A stretch of 64,000 nt of DNA. It comes from Lachnospiraceae bacterium. Lineage in GTDB: Bacteria > Bacillota > Clostridia > Lachnospirales > Lachnospiraceae. A program made the translations under genes and the position numbers. The stretch is taken from NCBI GenBank assembly GCA_015057035.1, contig SVFC01000003.1:1-64000 (forward strand). Reading direction: 5' to 3'. Each line of letters opens with the position of its first letter. The first letter of the stretch is position 1. The notes under the pieces were generated by a model. The model ran no database searches. It saw nothing but the letters and a program-made list of their open reading frames with translations, and was not told where the DNA came from. This document shows, one piece after another, positions 5,124 through 63,639 of this stretch.

Positions 5124-6602
5124 ATGTATGACTTGAAGCCTTACTTAAAAGTGATTGATGAGGTCATTGAGAGGGGACCTTATCAGGACAACTGGGATTC
5201 TCTGTCTCAGTATCAAGTGCCAAAATGGTACAAAAATGCTAAGTTTGGTATTTTTATTCACTGGGGAGTGTATAGTGTACCAGCTTTTGGCAATGAATGG
5301 TATTCCAGAAATATGTATATTCCAGACCATCGTGAGTATCAGCACCACATTGATACCTATGGTCCGCACAAGGACTTTGGATACAAAGATTTTATTCCAA
5401 TGTTTAAAGCAGAGAAGTTCGATTCTGATAAGTGGGCAGAACTTTTTGCAAAATCTGGTGCCAAGTACGTAGTTCCTGTATGTGAACATCACGACGGATT
5501 CCAGATGTATAAGAGCGAGATTTCTCATTGGAACGCTTATGAGATGGGGCCAAAGAAGGACGTGGTTGGAAATCTAAAACAGAGCATAGAAGACAAAGGT
5601 CTTACTCTGGGGGCTTCGACCCATCGTTTTGAGCATTGGTTCTTCATGGGCCATGGCAAAGACTTTGACAGTGATGTAAAAGAACCATTACAGCGCGGCG
5701 ATTTTTACTGGCCTGCCATGGCAGAACCGGAAAATACATATGACCTGACCAGTGAACCTTGGCCAACTCAGGAATATATTGAAGACTGGCTGGTTCGTAC
5801 CTGTGAGTTAATTGACAACTACAGACCTAAGGTGTTGTATTTTGACTGGTGGATTCACCATGTTTCTTTGAAAAAGTATTTGCAGAAATTAACTGCCTAC
5901 TATTACAATCGTGCCGCAGAATGGGGCGAAGAAGTCGTGATCTGCTACAAACATGATGCATTTTTGTTTGGAACAGCAGTGCCAGATGTGGAACGCGGTC
6001 AGTTTGCAGACATTAAGCCATATTACTGGCAGACGGATACTTCCATCAACTTGAATTCTTGGTGTTATACAGACAATAACAACAATTTCCGTGATGCCAA
6101 GGGATTGATTCAGGATTTGGTGGACATCGTTAGTAAAAACGGTAACCTGCTCTTAAATGTAGGTCCAAAAGCAGATGGAACGATTACCGAAGACGAGCAG
6201 AGAGTACTGACAGAAATTGGTGATTGGTTGTCCGTGAATGGTGAGGCCATTTATGAATCATCTACCTATCGTGTGGCTGCAGAAGGACCAACCCAGATTG
6301 TGGAAGGTCAGTTTGCAGATGGCAATAAGAAGGAATTCACCTCGGAAGACTTCCGCTTTACAGTAGCCCATGGCAATCTTTATGCCATTGCATTAAATCC
6401 AAGCGAAAACGGCGATTATTGCATCAAAACCCTTGCTGTAAAGGATTTTTCTAAGCAGGCAAACTTCGGTGGAATCATCCACAAGATTAGCGTTCTAGGT
6501 TATGATGGCGAAGTTACTTATACAAGAGATGAAGAAGGTTTGAAGATTCACGCGGATGTGAAGACAGATAAACCGGTGACCTTTAAAATTGAATTATTAT
6601 AA
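5124..6602 (+). CDS. GH29 alpha-L-fucosidase
   Basis: This enzyme should remove terminal alpha-L-fucose from glycans such as mucin or milk oligosaccharides. Family marks are KFGIFIHWGVYSVPAFGNEWYS near the N terminus, CEHHDGFQMY, and LYFDWWIHH with the likely nucleophile D241. A C-terminal beta-sandwich (about 350-492) follows the conserved NGNLLLNVGPKADG. No signal peptide is seen, so it acts on imported oligosaccharides. The ATG at 5124 is preferred over one at 5109 because the GGGGGAT ribosome site at 5111-5117 lies 7 bases before it. It is the last gene of the run that began at the left edge and ends at a strong hairpin at 6625. Confidence 0.92.
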   Translation: MYDLKPYLKVIDEVIERGPYQDNWDSLSQYQVPKWYKNAKFGIFIHWGVYSVPAFGNEWYSRNMYIPDHREYQHHIDTYGPHKDFGYKDFIPMFKAEKFDSDKWAELFAKSGAKYVVPVCEHHDGFQMYKSEISHWNAYEMGPKKDVVGNLKQSIEDKGLTLGASTHRFEHWFFMGHGKDFDSDVKEPLQRGDFYWPAMAEPENTYDLTSEPWPTQEYIEDWLVRTCELIDNYRPKVLYFDWWIHHVSLKKYLQKLTAYYYNRAAEWGEEVVICYKHDAFLFGTAVPDVERGQFADIKPYYWQTDTSINLNSWCYTDNNNNFRDAKGLIQDLVDIVSKNGNLLLNVGPKADGTITEDEQRVLTEIGDWLSVNGEAIYESSTYRVAAEGPTQIVEGQFADGNKKEFTSEDFRFTVAHGNLYAIALNPSENGDYCIKTLAVKDFSKQANFGGIIHKISVLGYDGEVTYTRDEEGLKIHADVKTDKPVTFKIELL

Positions 6603-6624: not shown

Positions 6625-6665
6625 AGGAGTGTCAGACATATCACATAGATATGTCTGACACTCCT
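6625..6665. terminator. Bidirectional hairpin terminator between GH29 and XRE genes
   Basis: A perfect 18-bp stem, AGGAGTGTCAGACATATC at 6625-6642 paired with 6648-6665, closes a 5-base loop. T-rich sequence flanks it on both strands. It sits between the 3' ends of the convergent fucosidase and XRE genes. Confidence 0.85.
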
Positions 6666-8578: not shown

Positions 8579-10591
8579 ATGAACAAGAAGCAGAAAAAGA
8601 TGCTGACGAGAATCATTATTGCAGCAGTACTAATGATTGTTCTAGCGTTTTTACCAGTAGAAGGCTGGTTGCGGCTCGCCTTATATATGGTGCCATATCT
8701 GACGGTAGGATACGATATTCTTAGAAAAGCATTTAAAGGGATTTGTAATAAGCAGGTGTTTGATGAGAACTTCCTCATGGCAATTGCGACGATTGGAGCA
8801 ATTCTTATTGCTATTACCAGGGATGGAGATTATACCGAAGCGGTAGCGGTAATGCTATTCTATCAGATAGGAGAACTGTTCCAAAGTTATGCAGTTGGAA
8901 AAAGTCGCAAGAACATCAGTGAACTTATGGACATTCGACCAGACTATGCCAATGTGGAAGTGGATGGTCAGTTAGAACAGGTGGACCCTGACGAAGTGGC
9001 AATTGGTTCCTATATTATTGTCCAGCCTGGGGAAAAAGTTCCAATTGACGGTATCGTAGTAGAAGGACATTCCACTTTAAATACAGTGGCACTTACGGGC
9101 GAAAGTATTCCAAGAGATATTGATGAAGGCGGTGAGATTACCAGCGGCTGCATCAATATGACGGGCGTGCTTAAGATTCAAACCACCAAAGAGTTTGGAG
9201 AATCAACAGTTTCTAAGATTCTTGATTTGGTAGAAAATGCCAGCTCCCGTAAATCCCGTTCCGAAGATTTCATTGCGAAATTTGCAAAATACTATACGCC
9301 AATCGTATGTTACAGTGCTTTGGCATTGGCGATTATTCCACCACTGGTGCAGATTTTTGTTATGGGTGTGAGTCCTGAGTGGGGCGATTGGGTGTATCGT
9401 GCTCTGACCTTCCTGGTAATCAGTTGCCCATGTGCGCTGGTAATCAGTATCCCATTGAGTTTTTTCGCAGGTCTCGGTGGGGCAAGTAATGCGGGTGTTT
9501 TGATTAAAGGTTCCAATTATTTGGAGACTCTATCTCAGGTAGATACCGTGGTTTTTGATAAAACAGGAACTCTGACTAAGGGCGCATTTGAAGTGGTTGG
9601 AGTTCATTTAGTTTCGGGTGCTTCTAGTACATTTAGTGACGAAGGAGACCAACATAAGATATTAGAGATAGCTGCACATGCAGAAAGTGCATCTTCTCAT
9701 CCAATTGCCAAAAGCATTCAGAGGGCATATCTATCTTGTCTTGAAGGAAAAATGGATAACGCCAGTGATGCTATGGTGGATAGTTATCGTGAGATGGACA
9801 GAACCAGAGTAACAGATATACGTGAAATCAGCGGCAAAGGTGTTATTGCCTCTGTAGACGGCAAAGAAGTTGCTGCAGGAAACTATCGCTTGATGAACGA
9901 ATTAGGAATCACCTATGAAGAATGTGACGAGGTGGGAACTATAGTTCACATGGCAGTAGACGGTGCATATGTAGGCCACATCTTAATCTCTGACGTAGTA
10001 AAAGAAACATCAAAACAGGCAATGACCGAACTGAAAAAAGCCGGTGTGAAGAATCTTGTAATGTTGACTGGTGACGTAGAACAGGTTGCTAAGAAGGTGG
10101 CAAAAGAATTGGGCATTGATAAAGTGTTTAGTCAGCTTATGCCTGGAGACAAAGTAGCGAAGGTAGAAGAATTACTTGGCGTGGAAAACGCTGTAGAGGA
10201 TGGTGCTTCGAATGTGCAGAATAGCATCTCTACGAAGAAGCGTGGCAAGCTCGCTTTCGCAGGCGACGGAATCAATGATGCTCCAGTGCTTTCCCGTGCA
10301 GACATTGGTATTGCCATGGGAGCCATGGGCTCTGACGCTGCTATTGAAGCCGCAGATGTAGTTTTGATGGACGATGATCCAATGAAGATTGCCAAGGCAA
10401 TTAAGATTTCCCGCAAGTGTATGGGAATCGTATACCAGAACGTAATCTTCGCATTGGGTGTGAAGGGAATCTGCCTGATCTTAGGCGCATTTGGTATCGC
10501 CAATATGTGGCTTGCTATTTTCGCCGATGTAGGTGTTATGGTGATTGCGGTATTGAATGCAATCAGAGCTTTATTTGTGAAGAATTTATAG
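8579..10591 (+). CDS. Zn/Cd/Pb-exporting P1B-type ATPase
   Basis: A 670-residue membrane pump that should expel zinc, cadmium or lead. Motifs in order: actuator loop LTGES, membrane SCPCALVIS with C283 and C285, phosphorylation site DKTGTLT with D327, HP motif in SSHPIAKS, GDGIND at about 562-567. In the last two helices VKG and ANMWLAIFADVG carry the lysine and aspartate that mark ZntA/CadA-type pumps, excluding copper ATPases. The N-terminal metal-binding domain of most family members is missing and is supplied as the separate gene upstream. Length is short for the family for that reason. AAAGGA precedes the ATG. Regulated by the divergent ArsR gene by position. Confidence 0.92.
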   Translation: MNKKQKKMLTRIIIAAVLMIVLAFLPVEGWLRLALYMVPYLTVGYDILRKAFKGICNKQVFDENFLMAIATIGAILIAITRDGDYTEAVAVMLFYQIGELFQSYAVGKSRKNISELMDIRPDYANVEVDGQLEQVDPDEVAIGSYIIVQPGEKVPIDGIVVEGHSTLNTVALTGESIPRDIDEGGEITSGCINMTGVLKIQTTKEFGESTVSKILDLVENASSRKSRSEDFIAKFAKYYTPIVCYSALALAIIPPLVQIFVMGVSPEWGDWVYRALTFLVISCPCALVISIPLSFFAGLGGASNAGVLIKGSNYLETLSQVDTVVFDKTGTLTKGAFEVVGVHLVSGASSTFSDEGDQHKILEIAAHAESASSHPIAKSIQRAYLSCLEGKMDNASDAMVDSYREMDRTRVTDIREISGKGVIASVDGKEVAAGNYRLMNELGITYEECDEVGTIVHMAVDGAYVGHILISDVVKETSKQAMTELKKAGVKNLVMLTGDVEQVAKKVAKELGIDKVFSQLMPGDKVAKVEELLGVENAVEDGASNVQNSISTKKRGKLAFAGDGINDAPVLSRADIGIAMGAMGSDAAIEAADVVLMDDDPMKIAKAIKISRKCMGIVYQNVIFALGVKGICLILGAFGIANMWLAIFADVGVMVIAVLNAIRALFVKNL

Positions 10592-10640
10592 AGATATATA
10601 CATCATTTGAAAGAGAAAATAACTTGATGTAGGAATGTAC

Positions 10641-10884
10641 GGGTGTAAGGCTCGCTTTTGAGCCTTACACCCATATTTTTTTGAAAAAACTAACAAAAAA
10701 TAATGAGAAAATAAAATTACGGGTGCATAATAAGTGTTTTCATTATGCACCCGAGAATTCTGTAAAATCGTGGGTGTATAGGAATATTTCAAAATACACA
10801 CCCAGTAATATGAAAAATAGCTTTCTTTTTGAAGCAAAAATGAATAAAAATGGGGTGTAGGAAGCAAACGGCTTTCCTACACCC
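10641..10884. repeat. Four-hairpin array, copy 1 (elements of 32 bp)
   Basis: Four inverted-repeat elements lie at 10641-10672, 10721-10752, 10772-10803 and 10853-10884. Each is exactly 32 bp, starts GGGTG and ends ACCC, and pairs with itself in register, but the inner sequences differ. Starts are 80, 51 and 81 bp apart. The first has a 13-bp stem followed by a T run and probably terminates the ATPase gene; the last, read on the minus strand, is also followed by T-rich sequence and may terminate the SDR gene. A matching array with nearly the same spacing is at 63395-63639. The region lies between the 3' ends of two convergent genes. I do not recognise the element. Confidence 0.8.
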
Positions 10885-10909
10885 GACTATTACACTACAC
10901 CCGACTATT
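10877..10909. repeat. 15-bp direct repeat at the edge of hairpin array 1
   Basis: CTACACCCGACTATT occurs at 10877-10891 and again at 10895-10909, three bases apart. The first copy contains the right end of the fourth hairpin; the second is an extra half-site, so the array edge was duplicated in tandem. Confidence 0.7.
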
Positions 10910-10924
10910 GCGCAAAATCAAATC

Positions 10925-11725
10925 CTATTCAAAGAAATTTCTCTTATTAAATCCAGCTGTCATGAATCTCCAAGCGGCTTTACCATTTGTAAGCCATTCA
11001 ATCTTGGCATTGTTCTTGGTGTTTTTCAGCATTCCTGCTACTAAGAATTCAGCAACAACGTCTGGATAGTCACCGAGGATGTTGTAAACCTTCTTGGTTT
11101 TTTCTGGAAGGTCGATGGCTTCTTTGTCGCCAAGGGCTTTTACGGTGAAGTCTGTAATCATGATACCAGGGCTGATAAGTCCAACGAGAACATTGGTGTT
11201 ACGTTCAGCACTTTCTAAAGCCAGAGCCTGTGTAAAGTGAGTCACGGCTCTCTTAGAGGTTCCGTAAAGGTTCAGACCGAGCATCTTGGCATCGTTGCTG
11301 CCGTAGCCTTCTACGTTGTAGATGGCACCATGTCCCTGTTCAATCATTTTCTGCATAGCGAGGCGAGACCCCATAATTGCGCCACGAAGGTCAATGTCAA
11401 GAACTGCATTGATTTCTCCTTCAGTTAATTCCCAAATGGCACGCATTGGCTGGTTTACACCAGCATTGTTAATCCAGATGTCAACAGTGCCAAATGCTTC
11501 TACTGCAGAATCCCATAATTTGCCCAAATCTTCATTGGATGCGATATTTGCGACGCAGATATGTACTTTGCCTTCGCCAGGCATAGCAGCGAGTTCCTTC
11601 TGCGCATCTAAAAGTCTCTGTTCATTAATATCATTTAATACAACATTGTAATTATTTCTGTGGAACACTTTTGCCATTTCGAATCCAAGGCCACGTCCAC
11701 TACCTGTAATAACAACAGTTTTCAT
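10925..11725 (-). CDS. Short-chain dehydrogenase/reductase
   Basis: A classical SDR of 266 residues: the dinucleotide motif TGSGRGLG near the N terminus, NNAG near 90, and the catalytic YGTSK near 155. LNDI at the end of the second strand places an aspartate where NAD-preferring members have it, so NAD is the likelier cofactor. The catalytic serine region reads NVEGYGSN, less usual than the common S of the triad, so activity may be altered. Substrate cannot be assigned. It is transcribed alone from the promoter at 11799-11827, which overlaps a palindrome, so repression by an unlinked regulator is likely. Confidence 0.85.
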   Translation of the reverse strand: MKTVVITGSGRGLGFEMAKVFHRNNYNVVLNDINEQRLLDAQKELAAMPGEGKVHICVANIASNEDLGKLWDSAVEAFGTVDIWINNAGVNQPMRAIWELTEGEINAVLDIDLRGAIMGSRLAMQKMIEQGHGAIYNVEGYGSNDAKMLGLNLYGTSKRAVTHFTQALALESAERNTNVLVGLISPGIMITDFTVKALGDKEAIDLPEKTKKVYNILGDYPDVVAEFLVAGMLKNTKNNAKIEWLTNGKAAWRFMTAGFNKRNFFE

Positions 11726-19081: not shown

Positions 19082-19139
19082 TATTTGACAAATCAATAGA
19101 TTTTGCATAAACTAAAACATAAGTTTTATAAGAAAAAGG

Positions 19140-19420
19140 CTTTGAACAGAAAGAGTAGAGGGTATACTAAGACGAAAGAGAGAAGTTGTCACCGGCTGAA
19201 AGCAACTTTAGTGTTAGTCTTCGAAAGTGCATCTGGGAGCTGATCTGGTAAGGGTAACTAAGCCAGGTACGTTTTGCACACGTTACGTGTTTGAGGAATT
19301 CCTGCGCAAGTGTAGTTGTTTTGCGTGAACGTAGTAAAATATGCTAGGCATTGTGTAGGGGATTCAAATTAGAGTGGAACCACGGATTACTTCGTCTCTA
19401 GGGACGGGGTAATCCGTTTT
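19140..19420 (+). ncRNA. T-box riboswitch, cysteine-specific
   Basis: The 280-base leader ends with the T-box sequence AGAGTGGAACCACGG at 19371-19385 and a terminator whose stem is ACGGATTAC (19382-19390) with GTAATCCGT (19409-19417) followed by T-rich sequence. Upstream is a Stem I with GGCTGAAAGCAAC. TGC at 19228-19230, after the distal stem, is the best candidate for the specifier codon and means cysteine. Uncharged tRNA-Cys would favour the antiterminator and switch on cysE and cysS. The downstream genes support this. Confidence 0.88.
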
Positions 19421-34255: not shown

Positions 34256-34300
34256 GGGTGTTATAACTACTTGAAAGAGTAGTTATAGCACCCTTAATTT
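34256..34300. terminator. Terminator between zinc-ribbon and SLT genes
   Basis: GGGTGTTATAACTACT at 34256-34271 pairs with 34278-34293 (one G-T pair) around a 6-base loop, followed by TTAATTTTG. It is 38 bases long, so distinct from the 32-bp hairpin elements although the ends look similar. Confidence 0.8.
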
Positions 34301-63394: not shown

Positions 63395-63639
63395 GGGTGT
63401 GAAACGAAGTGAATCTTTCTACACCCGTGCATTGCGCTGAAAAGTGGTGTGTTCTGACTCCTCTGATGAGTTTTCGGGTGTGAGTAAGGCGATTTTTGTA
63501 TATACCCATAAATTATACAGATTCTATGGGTGTATTATAAATTGCTCGATTATATACCCACAATCCAGAAATAACGCGCATTTAGTGTCTAAAAAAAGAA
63601 ATTAAAAGGGTGTAGGCGAGAATTTTCTAGCCTACACCC
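63395..63639. repeat. Four-hairpin array, copy 2 (elements of 32 bp)
   Basis: Elements lie at 63395-63426, 63476-63507, 63528-63559 and 63608-63639. Each is exactly 32 bp, starts GGGTGT and ends ACCC, and self-pairs in register. Start spacing is 81, 52 and 80 bp, against 80, 51 and 81 in the array at 10641. Linkers of 49, 20 and 48 bp are not similar in sequence to those of copy 1. The second and third elements are weaker and use G-T pairs. The last, read on the minus strand, is followed by T-rich sequence and may end the dinB gene. The array is the only content of the 450-bp gap between GH3 and dinB apart from the GH3 terminator and the short tandem repeat. Confidence 0.8.

Follow-up and report, generated by a model that had tools for sequence, protein, structure and literature searches.

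Four-Site Arrays of Inverted Repeats with Near-Helical Spacing in Lachnospiraceae: Candidate Architectural DNA Elements

Introduction

Four inverted repeats of equal length stand in a row behind a P-type ATPase gene in the genome of a Lachnospiraceae bacterium. Are they hairpins of an RNA, stacked terminators, mobile repeats, or protein-binding sites in double-stranded DNA? We analyzed the window (i.e., the whole 64,000-nucleotide stretch in which they lie, contig 7 of a 2.4-Mb, 40-contig assembly with a completeness of 84.7%), the rest of this genome, and the genomes of its relatives. The first-pass annotation of the window had left two readings side by side, a structured non-coding RNA and a DNA element read as hairpins or inverted sites.

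Results

Two arrays in the window

On re-measurement, the four elements start at 10641, 10721, 10772, and 10853, are each exactly 32 bp long, and have start spacings of 80/51/81 bp, all as claimed in the first-pass annotation. Its 13-bp stem for the first element and the changes that it described at pairs 6/27 and 8/25 were also correct. The features, on the forward strand, are as follows.

10641..10672: site S1, 32 bp, 13-bp stem
10673..10720: linker 1, 48 bp, without conserved sequence; A/T phased at ~10 bp when averaged over arrays
10721..10752: site S2, stem of 11 to 12 bp (12 including one outer C-G); arms GGGTGCA/TGCACCC
10753..10771: central linker, 19 bp; the start spacing of 51 is ~5 helical turns
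10772..10803: site S3, 6-bp stem; imperfect arms GGGTGTA/CACACCC
10804..10852: linker 3, 49 bp; the start spacing of 81 is ~8 helical turns
10853..10884: site S4, 11-bp stem
10877..10909: direct duplication of 15 bp, CTACACCCGACTATT twice, 18 bp apart; repeats the S4 right arm
63395..63426: second array, S1
63476..63507: second array, S2
63528..63559: second array, S3
63608..63639: second array, S4

S1, S2, and S4 are strong hairpins; S3 is weakly paired because of an A-C mismatch at pair 7/26, and the copy of the S4 right arm at 10877..10909 is a solitary extra half-site. The second array, whose match in spacing was mentioned in the first-pass annotation, starts at 63395, 63476, 63528, and 63608 (81/52/80 bp) and is flanked by convergent genes for a glycosyl hydrolase family 3 protein and a Y-family DNA polymerase.

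Three other structures were observed in the window: a single 38-bp hairpin at 34256-34293 (GGGTGTTATAACTACTTGAAAGAGTAGTTATAGCACCC), which is not part of any array; a perfect 18-bp stem with a 5-base loop at 6625-6665, between two convergent open reading frames (ORFs); and a T-box leader at 19133-19402 (Rfam RF00230, 95.6 bits).

An array family within one genome

Searches of the whole window genome recovered 31 sites of the form GGGTG-N20-24-CACCC (3 for the reversed control). The pattern GGGTGTA-N18-TACACCC had 37 matches with at most one mismatch (0 in the control) and 96 with at most three (58 in the control). Twelve stretches around the pattern matches were retrieved, and arrays were scored there. 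The genome contains 12 four-site arrays and 2 irregular or partial ones, built from inverted 32-bp sites (GGGTGTA-18N-TACACCC), and 55 sites were called in total. Start spacings in the 12 four-site arrays are 80-81/51-52/80-82 bp, with means of 80.7/51.2/80.7 bp and standard deviations of 0.49/0.39/0.65 bp. Further copies with the same spacing, on which the first-pass annotation had made its reading depend, are thus present in this genome. The third site of one of the 12 (C13, at 78964) is decayed, retaining 10 of 14 arm letters; the array at C31:42217 has three sites, and that at C5:66784 has four spaced 51, 79, and 80 bp. Five arrays (C5, C13 twice, C21, and C31) have a fifth site, or a remnant of one, 59 to 60 bp outside an outer site.

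The linkers of aligned half-arrays in this genome have a mean pairwise identity of 0.338 (maximum, 0.542; shuffled mean, 0.298) and are not homologous. Identity among site interiors is 0.33, compared with 0.71 in the related genome G022. The earlier claim that sequence drifts while structure and spacing persist holds within this genome, where unrelated linkers are combined with spacing deviations of only 0.39 to 0.65 bp. These data bear on a reading as mobile repeats similar to REPs or REPINs, in which palindromes spread by a transposase would keep the geometry of their founder without any cellular role. We regard this reading as unlikely: linkers with an identity of 0.34 against 0.30 after shuffling are unrelated, yet the spacing is held within 1 to 2 bp, and founder descent without selection is insufficient because the linkers are non-homologous while the spacing is fixed.

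To the right of one array (L094, G000:C5, ~5357-5560), a ~38-bp unit that includes a right arm (CCATACACCCGCGCAGACCATTTCAAGCCC) is tandemly repeated.

Diverged arrays in other species

Arrays with exactly these arms were found in the window genome only, among 62 genomes of the genus; allowing one mismatch, the other genomes of this set have at most 2 matches each, and in a set of 397 family genomes the others stay at 3 or fewer. The idea that the arrays are confined to this species proved true only for these arms and this site length, since diverged arrays with other GGG-YRYR arms are present in other species.

The nearest relative by rpoB (G011) is 92% identical in that gene and ~67 to 82% in other stretches. 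Six array loci were compared with it, and two of them are occupied in G011 by a four-site array whose arms differ. One lies between apgM and hom (71/51/70); the other immediately follows the P-type ATPase gene that precedes the window array (71/51/71). By reading, no array is present in G011 at the other four (rplL-rpoB, glpK, rpiB, and pflA-pflB); the rpiB locus there has a different neighbor, and the pflA-pflB gap is ~23 bp. The existence of these orthologous arrays led us to drop the idea that arrays arise by templated synthesis or by acquisition of foreign spacers. Presence and absence between species would suit mobile repeats, an example being the rplL-rpoB stretch of 420 bp in the window genome and 88 bp in G011. 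A solitary site (C13:80127; L097 3328-3359) lies between apgM and a 259-amino-acid gene, upstream of the latter, and G011 has a corresponding site in this gap. The 259-amino-acid gene sits between two arrays, and its product had no Pfam match at E ≤ 0.001.

Counts for the pattern GGGYRYR-N18-19-YRYRCCC and its control were 48 and 2 in the window genome and 27 and 3 in G022; the excess was smaller in G012 (11 and 4), G011 (9 and 2), G018 (8 and 1), and G028 (7 and 0); the remaining genomes were at most 3 above control. In G022, similar 33-bp sites are numerous and are arranged head to head (S> S> S< S<). They resemble GGGCATATACAAAAAAATTGCTTTCCTATGCCC, with a mostly constant left interior, a variable right interior, and arms that were set by the search pattern. 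Their spacings are 81/52/81 (twice), 52/80, 81/51/92, 92/51/81, 81, and 82/82/82 bp, and their linkers are of several unrelated kinds, some homologous or duplicated. The similar head-to-head sites and the homologous or duplicated linkers of G022 also favor mobile repeats.

Three loci have unusual layouts. In the 82/82/82 array (L189, G022:C249, 2070-2348), two successive linkers are near copies, which suggests that it may have grown by tandem duplication. A second palindrome family in G022 (L190, G022:C7, 1198-1323) consists of three tandem hairpins, GGGACGTAGGATTTTCT.GAAAAA.ATACGTCCC, at 46-bp spacing. Six sites stand in a row at 62, 62, 83, 62, and 83 bp in G017 (L259, G017:C48, 670-1056), i.e., a longer array made of 6- and 8-turn steps.

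Survey across the family

The first-pass annotation had proposed a covariance-model search of the family. We ran it with a model of half an array (R1), which recovered the known arrays, including some that were not in its training set. Over 394 relatives, at least 53 genomes matched at E ≤ 0.001 (without a control model), comprising at least 19 of the genus, at least 19 from the rest of the family, and at least 15 of other families. The last matches (E, 1.2e-5 to 8.3e-4) are taken as chance. Among good genomes, at least 40 of 293 matched, and matches below 1e-6 occurred in at least 12 genus members, including the window genome, and at least 8 genomes of other genera. These counts are lower bounds because only nine candidates per genome were scored.

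We retrieved 60 regions from 28 genomes around the R1 matches listed. The training data of R1 had spacings of 71 and 81 bp and arms of the YRYR type, and R1 was also used to choose the 60 loci. A strict site caller independent of the model found clusters of at least two sites in 29 of the 60 regions and none in 31. In 86 sites from genomes outside the discovery set, positions 4 to 7 of the left arm were Y, R, Y, and R in 87, 88, 86, and 72%, respectively, at loci that the model, itself carrying YRYR arms, had picked. The commonest arm differs by species: TGTA in the window genome and in G017 (with longer sites), CATA in G022 and G111, and TATA/TATT in G067. Transitions keep the pyrimidine-purine steps, and the arms may therefore be read partly by DNA flexibility.

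A two-site pattern was also searched in a genome collection and viral contigs, yielding 66 and 3 stretches. Suitably spaced pairs, with a looser arm score, were present in 5 of the 69, and by eye we judged them to be chance or local duplications (records closest to the window genome were possibly outside this search). Titles and beginnings of abstracts of open-licence papers contained no description of such arrays.

Spacings cluster near whole helical turns

The surveyed loci and those of the window genome, G022, and G011 gave 123 consecutive site pairs, 113 of them at 40 to 100 bp, distributed as follows.

46 bp: 2 pairs (the different G022 repeat)
50-53 bp: 27 pairs
59-62 bp: 9 pairs
67 bp: 1 pair
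69-73 bp: 25 pairs
79-83 bp: 47 pairs
92 bp: 2 pairs

The spacings cluster near 51, 62, 71, 81, and 92 bp, i.e., ~5 to 9 helical turns. The other ten pairs are at 107, 121-122, 131-133, 139, and 140 bp; gaps of 121-122 and 131-133 bp fit a missed middle site, and 67, 107, 139, and 140 bp are outliers. The best period of the 113 spacings was 10.0 bp (R, 0.79 start to start and 0.82 center to center; P < 1/500 versus uniform), at which the spacings are offset by 1.1 bp from whole turns. Genomes outside the discovery set (n = 53) gave a period of 10.25 bp (R, 0.83) with an offset of about -0.2 bp.

The test was repeated on pairs that the model had not matched because the model knew the 71- and 81-bp spacings. 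The 28 pairs outside the model matches listed had an R of 0.89 at 10.3 bp (P < 1/5000), and those unique per genome (n = 21) had an R of 0.885 (P < 1/5000). Twelve of these 28 belong to the 7- and 8-turn classes on which R1 was trained and 16 have spacings close to 51 or 62 bp, so that the test removes much, not all, of the model-selection bias. Between species, the spacing differs by about whole turns (8-5-8 in the window genome and 7-5-7 in its nearest relative), which also argues against mobile repeats with inherited geometry.

Linkers are A/T phased

In aligned linkers, A+T recurs once per helical turn and in phase with the sites, with a period of 10.0 bp in the window genome (n = 23) and 10.75 bp in G022 (n = 8, of which fewer are independent because three linker pairs are 73 to 91% alike; P < 1/2000 for each genome by row shuffles). 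With fixed geometry and no aligner, the period was 10.5 bp for linker 1 and 10.25 bp for linker 3, and the whole array with masked arms had a best A/T period of 10.0 bp (P < 1/1000). Outside the discovery set, 38-bp linkers (n = 14) gave 10.5 bp and 48-bp linkers (n = 13) gave 10.75 bp (P < 1/2000 each); these linkers were selected by the model, whose linker columns hold weak A/T preferences. Two segments do not fit: the S1 interior alone gives 12.25 bp, and the best period of the 19-bp central linker is 8.0 bp, the edge of the scan. Periodicity in the flanks is weak (P, 0.019 near left, 0.007 near right, and 0.016 far right) and was not detected in the far left flank (P = 0.79).

The quantization of spacings near helical turns across species and the helix-phased A/T of the linkers support the DNA element read as inverted sites over the structured RNA that the first-pass annotation had placed beside it. 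A protein-bound duplex that is bent or wrapped would require both regularities, and an RNA predicts neither.

Arm covariation and the RNA reading

The covarying stems noted earlier were borne out. In alignment A1 (35 half-arrays), 82.3% of cells were paired versus 76.7% after shuffling, and 81 cells were altered on both sides versus 42; none of 500 shuffles was as high in either measure. Two other covariation measures on A1 were equalled in 47 and 29 of 500 shuffles. In 51 sites, the two arms matched better than after shuffling of the right arms, with P values of 0.004 at pair 4/29, 0.016 at 6/27, 0.022 at 8/25, 0.0008 at 9/24, 0.008 at 10/23, and 0.013 at 11/22, and with no excess at the near-invariant pairs 1 to 3 or at 5/28, 7/26, and 12 to 16. 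The seven outermost pairs of the 55 sites comprise 385 cells, of which 46 were non-Watson-Crick (33 A-C or G-T and 13 other).

One explanation is a structured RNA or an mRNA 3'-end element of four hairpins. The covariation between left and right arms speaks for it, as do the 33 of 46 outer-arm departures that would be G-U compatible on one strand, the preference for one such strand in most arrays, and the position of arrays mostly behind genes. Covariation is, however, also possible for palindromic DNA and is thus shared by both readings. Against an RNA stand, besides the spacing and A/T phasing, the mixed G-U strand in C5a, C5b, C8, and C21, a G-U strand opposite to both genes in C31b and C2, and the lack of excess pairing at interior pairs 12 to 16. 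The window genome lacks conserved linkers and has little conserved interior, and Rfam returned nothing relevant for the whole window at the gathering threshold or for 10500-11000 at E ≤ 1 (best E, 0.15). We consider the RNA explanation very unlikely. The covariation does support a capacity to form hairpins or cruciforms, or the correction of quasi-palindromes by mutation, and it speaks against a model of dimer sites alone, since a hairpin requires it and a plain dimer site does not.

Gene context and terminators

All 14 arrays of the window genome are intergenic, 6 between convergent and 8 between tandem genes, with none between divergent genes. Of 55 clusters (one being the other G022 repeat), 51 were scored with ORFs taken by length only, leaving out 3 at contig ends and 1 overlapping a long ORF; 33 were tandem, 17 convergent, and 1 divergent. 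At most one divergent cluster among 51 has a probability of 0.0025 if the share of divergent gaps is assumed to be 15%. The convergent gene ends at which the first-pass annotation had proposed to look for other copies account for 6 of the 14 arrays and 17 of the 51 clusters; the majority of clusters, 33, are flanked by tandem genes.

A further explanation is stacked intrinsic terminators serving neighboring genes. S1, on the plus strand and followed by a T run, is terminator-like for the upstream P-type ATPase gene, and S2, on the minus strand, is terminator-like for the convergent dehydrogenase gene. Between 10400 and 11100, there are four terminator-like places versus 0.4 in shuffles, two of the four lying inside the ATPase coding region. 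S3 and S4, however, were not called terminators, and terminators need no fixed spacing, common arms, or helical phasing. At rplL-rpoB, the array is preceded, by eye, by a separate terminator-like hairpin common to G011. Terminators are already insufficient as a full explanation, and we hold it highly improbable that they account for the arrays; single palindromes may have been co-opted as terminators.

Comparison with known systems

REP and BIME elements are extragenic palindromes of 20 to 40 bp, often grouped and in opposite orientations, and gyrase and IHF are reported to bind BIME-2 and BIME-1, respectively (PMC2817692, PMC3733652). Array sites are likewise palindromes (31 to 35 bp) and extragenic (1 of 55 clusters overlaps a long ORF), and this match in size and position is a further point for mobile repeats. 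In the window genome, little of the interior or linker sequence is conserved, and site interiors in G022 have an identity of 0.71. Unlike REP and BIME elements, the arrays have spacings near whole helical turns and A/T-phased linkers. The REP foot tags were nearly absent within 6 nucleotides of 178 sites (GTAG, 1; CTAC, 6; CGTC, 2; GACG, 0): at least 171 sites have neither GTAG nor CTAC, and 176 have neither CGTC nor GACG, a finding that weighs against REP-like mobile repeats and for which we did not file the arrays as REPs. No transposase was found by Pfam among 10 proteins adjoining arrays, and 200 kb of Escherichia coli sequence contained only two same-orientation REP pairs, at 89 and 90 bp. 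By analogy, the arrays may work like REP/BIME elements, as a variant of extragenic palindrome arrays set apart by absent foot tags. Mobile spread and architectural retention are compatible; arrays could spread and then be kept for their architecture.

The E. coli gyrase motif, according to the accessible part of its description, has a 36-bp center, two 47-bp flanks, and a G/C periodicity of 10.75 bp that is attributed to wrapping (PMC6379681). The arrays are similar in their 32- to 35-bp sites, many linkers of 37 to 49 bp, and periodicity of 10.0 to 10.75 bp. The gyrase motif differs in being 130 bp long and degenerate, and that part of the report mentions neither inverted GGG-YRYR arms nor a four-site layout (PMC6379681). 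Compared with the strong gyrase site as presented there, the array linkers are periodic, and the flanks outside S1 and S4 are weakly so. For RemA and LrpC, nucleosome-like wrapping has been proposed, and the AT-rich patches protected by RemA are 7 bp long and separated by 3 bp, giving a 10-bp period (PMC8481266). These RemA sites activate promoters (PMC8481266), whereas divergent gaps rarely contain an array (1 of 51) and the palindromic arms of the arrays are conserved.

Discussion

We think it fairly probable that the arrays are architectural elements of double-stranded DNA, each bent or wrapped by a putative protein and serving DNA topology or chromosome structure. A dimeric DNA-binding protein would recognize the inverted GGG-YRYR arms of each 32- to 35-bp site. 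With sites near whole turns apart (~10.0 to 10.3 bp per turn), the bound proteins would face the same side of the DNA, and the once-per-turn A/T patches would let the linkers bend, so that wrapping or folding could pack ~245 bp into a single compact nucleoprotein complex. Wrapping would fit no better than short, phased DNA loops that join repressor-like dimers. Because most arrays follow genes and few are found at divergent promoters, a topological or structural role, like that of the E. coli BIME elements, is the most likely.

Inverted sites or phased A/T patches in wrapped complexes have precedents, which the arrays resemble in one or the other feature: the four inverted iterons of the phage lambda O-some, and nucleosome positioning DNA. 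With 14 loci in one genome, replication origins are unlikely. Our leading guess for the protein that reads the arrays is gyrase or a wrapping nucleoid protein; RemA- and LrpC-type proteins and a new family are candidates.

More tentatively, the arrays may form a class of sequence-programmed bacterial chromatin elements of ~24 helical turns, with conserved rotational geometry and an arm specificity that shifts between species. A wrapping protein would then read the geometry, and the arms would change genome-wide while the geometry stays or shifts by whole turns.

To our knowledge, bacterial elements whose sequence programs wrapping are few, apart from certain promoters, origins, and gyrase sites. 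If the architectural reading is true, a set of elements conserved more in geometry than in sequence, present in many species of one bacterial family and varying among them by whole helical turns, would constitute a natural in vivo assay of DNA wrapping and offer a route to the protein that reads the arrays. Searches based on spacing can reveal elements that are missed by sequence-repeat tools.
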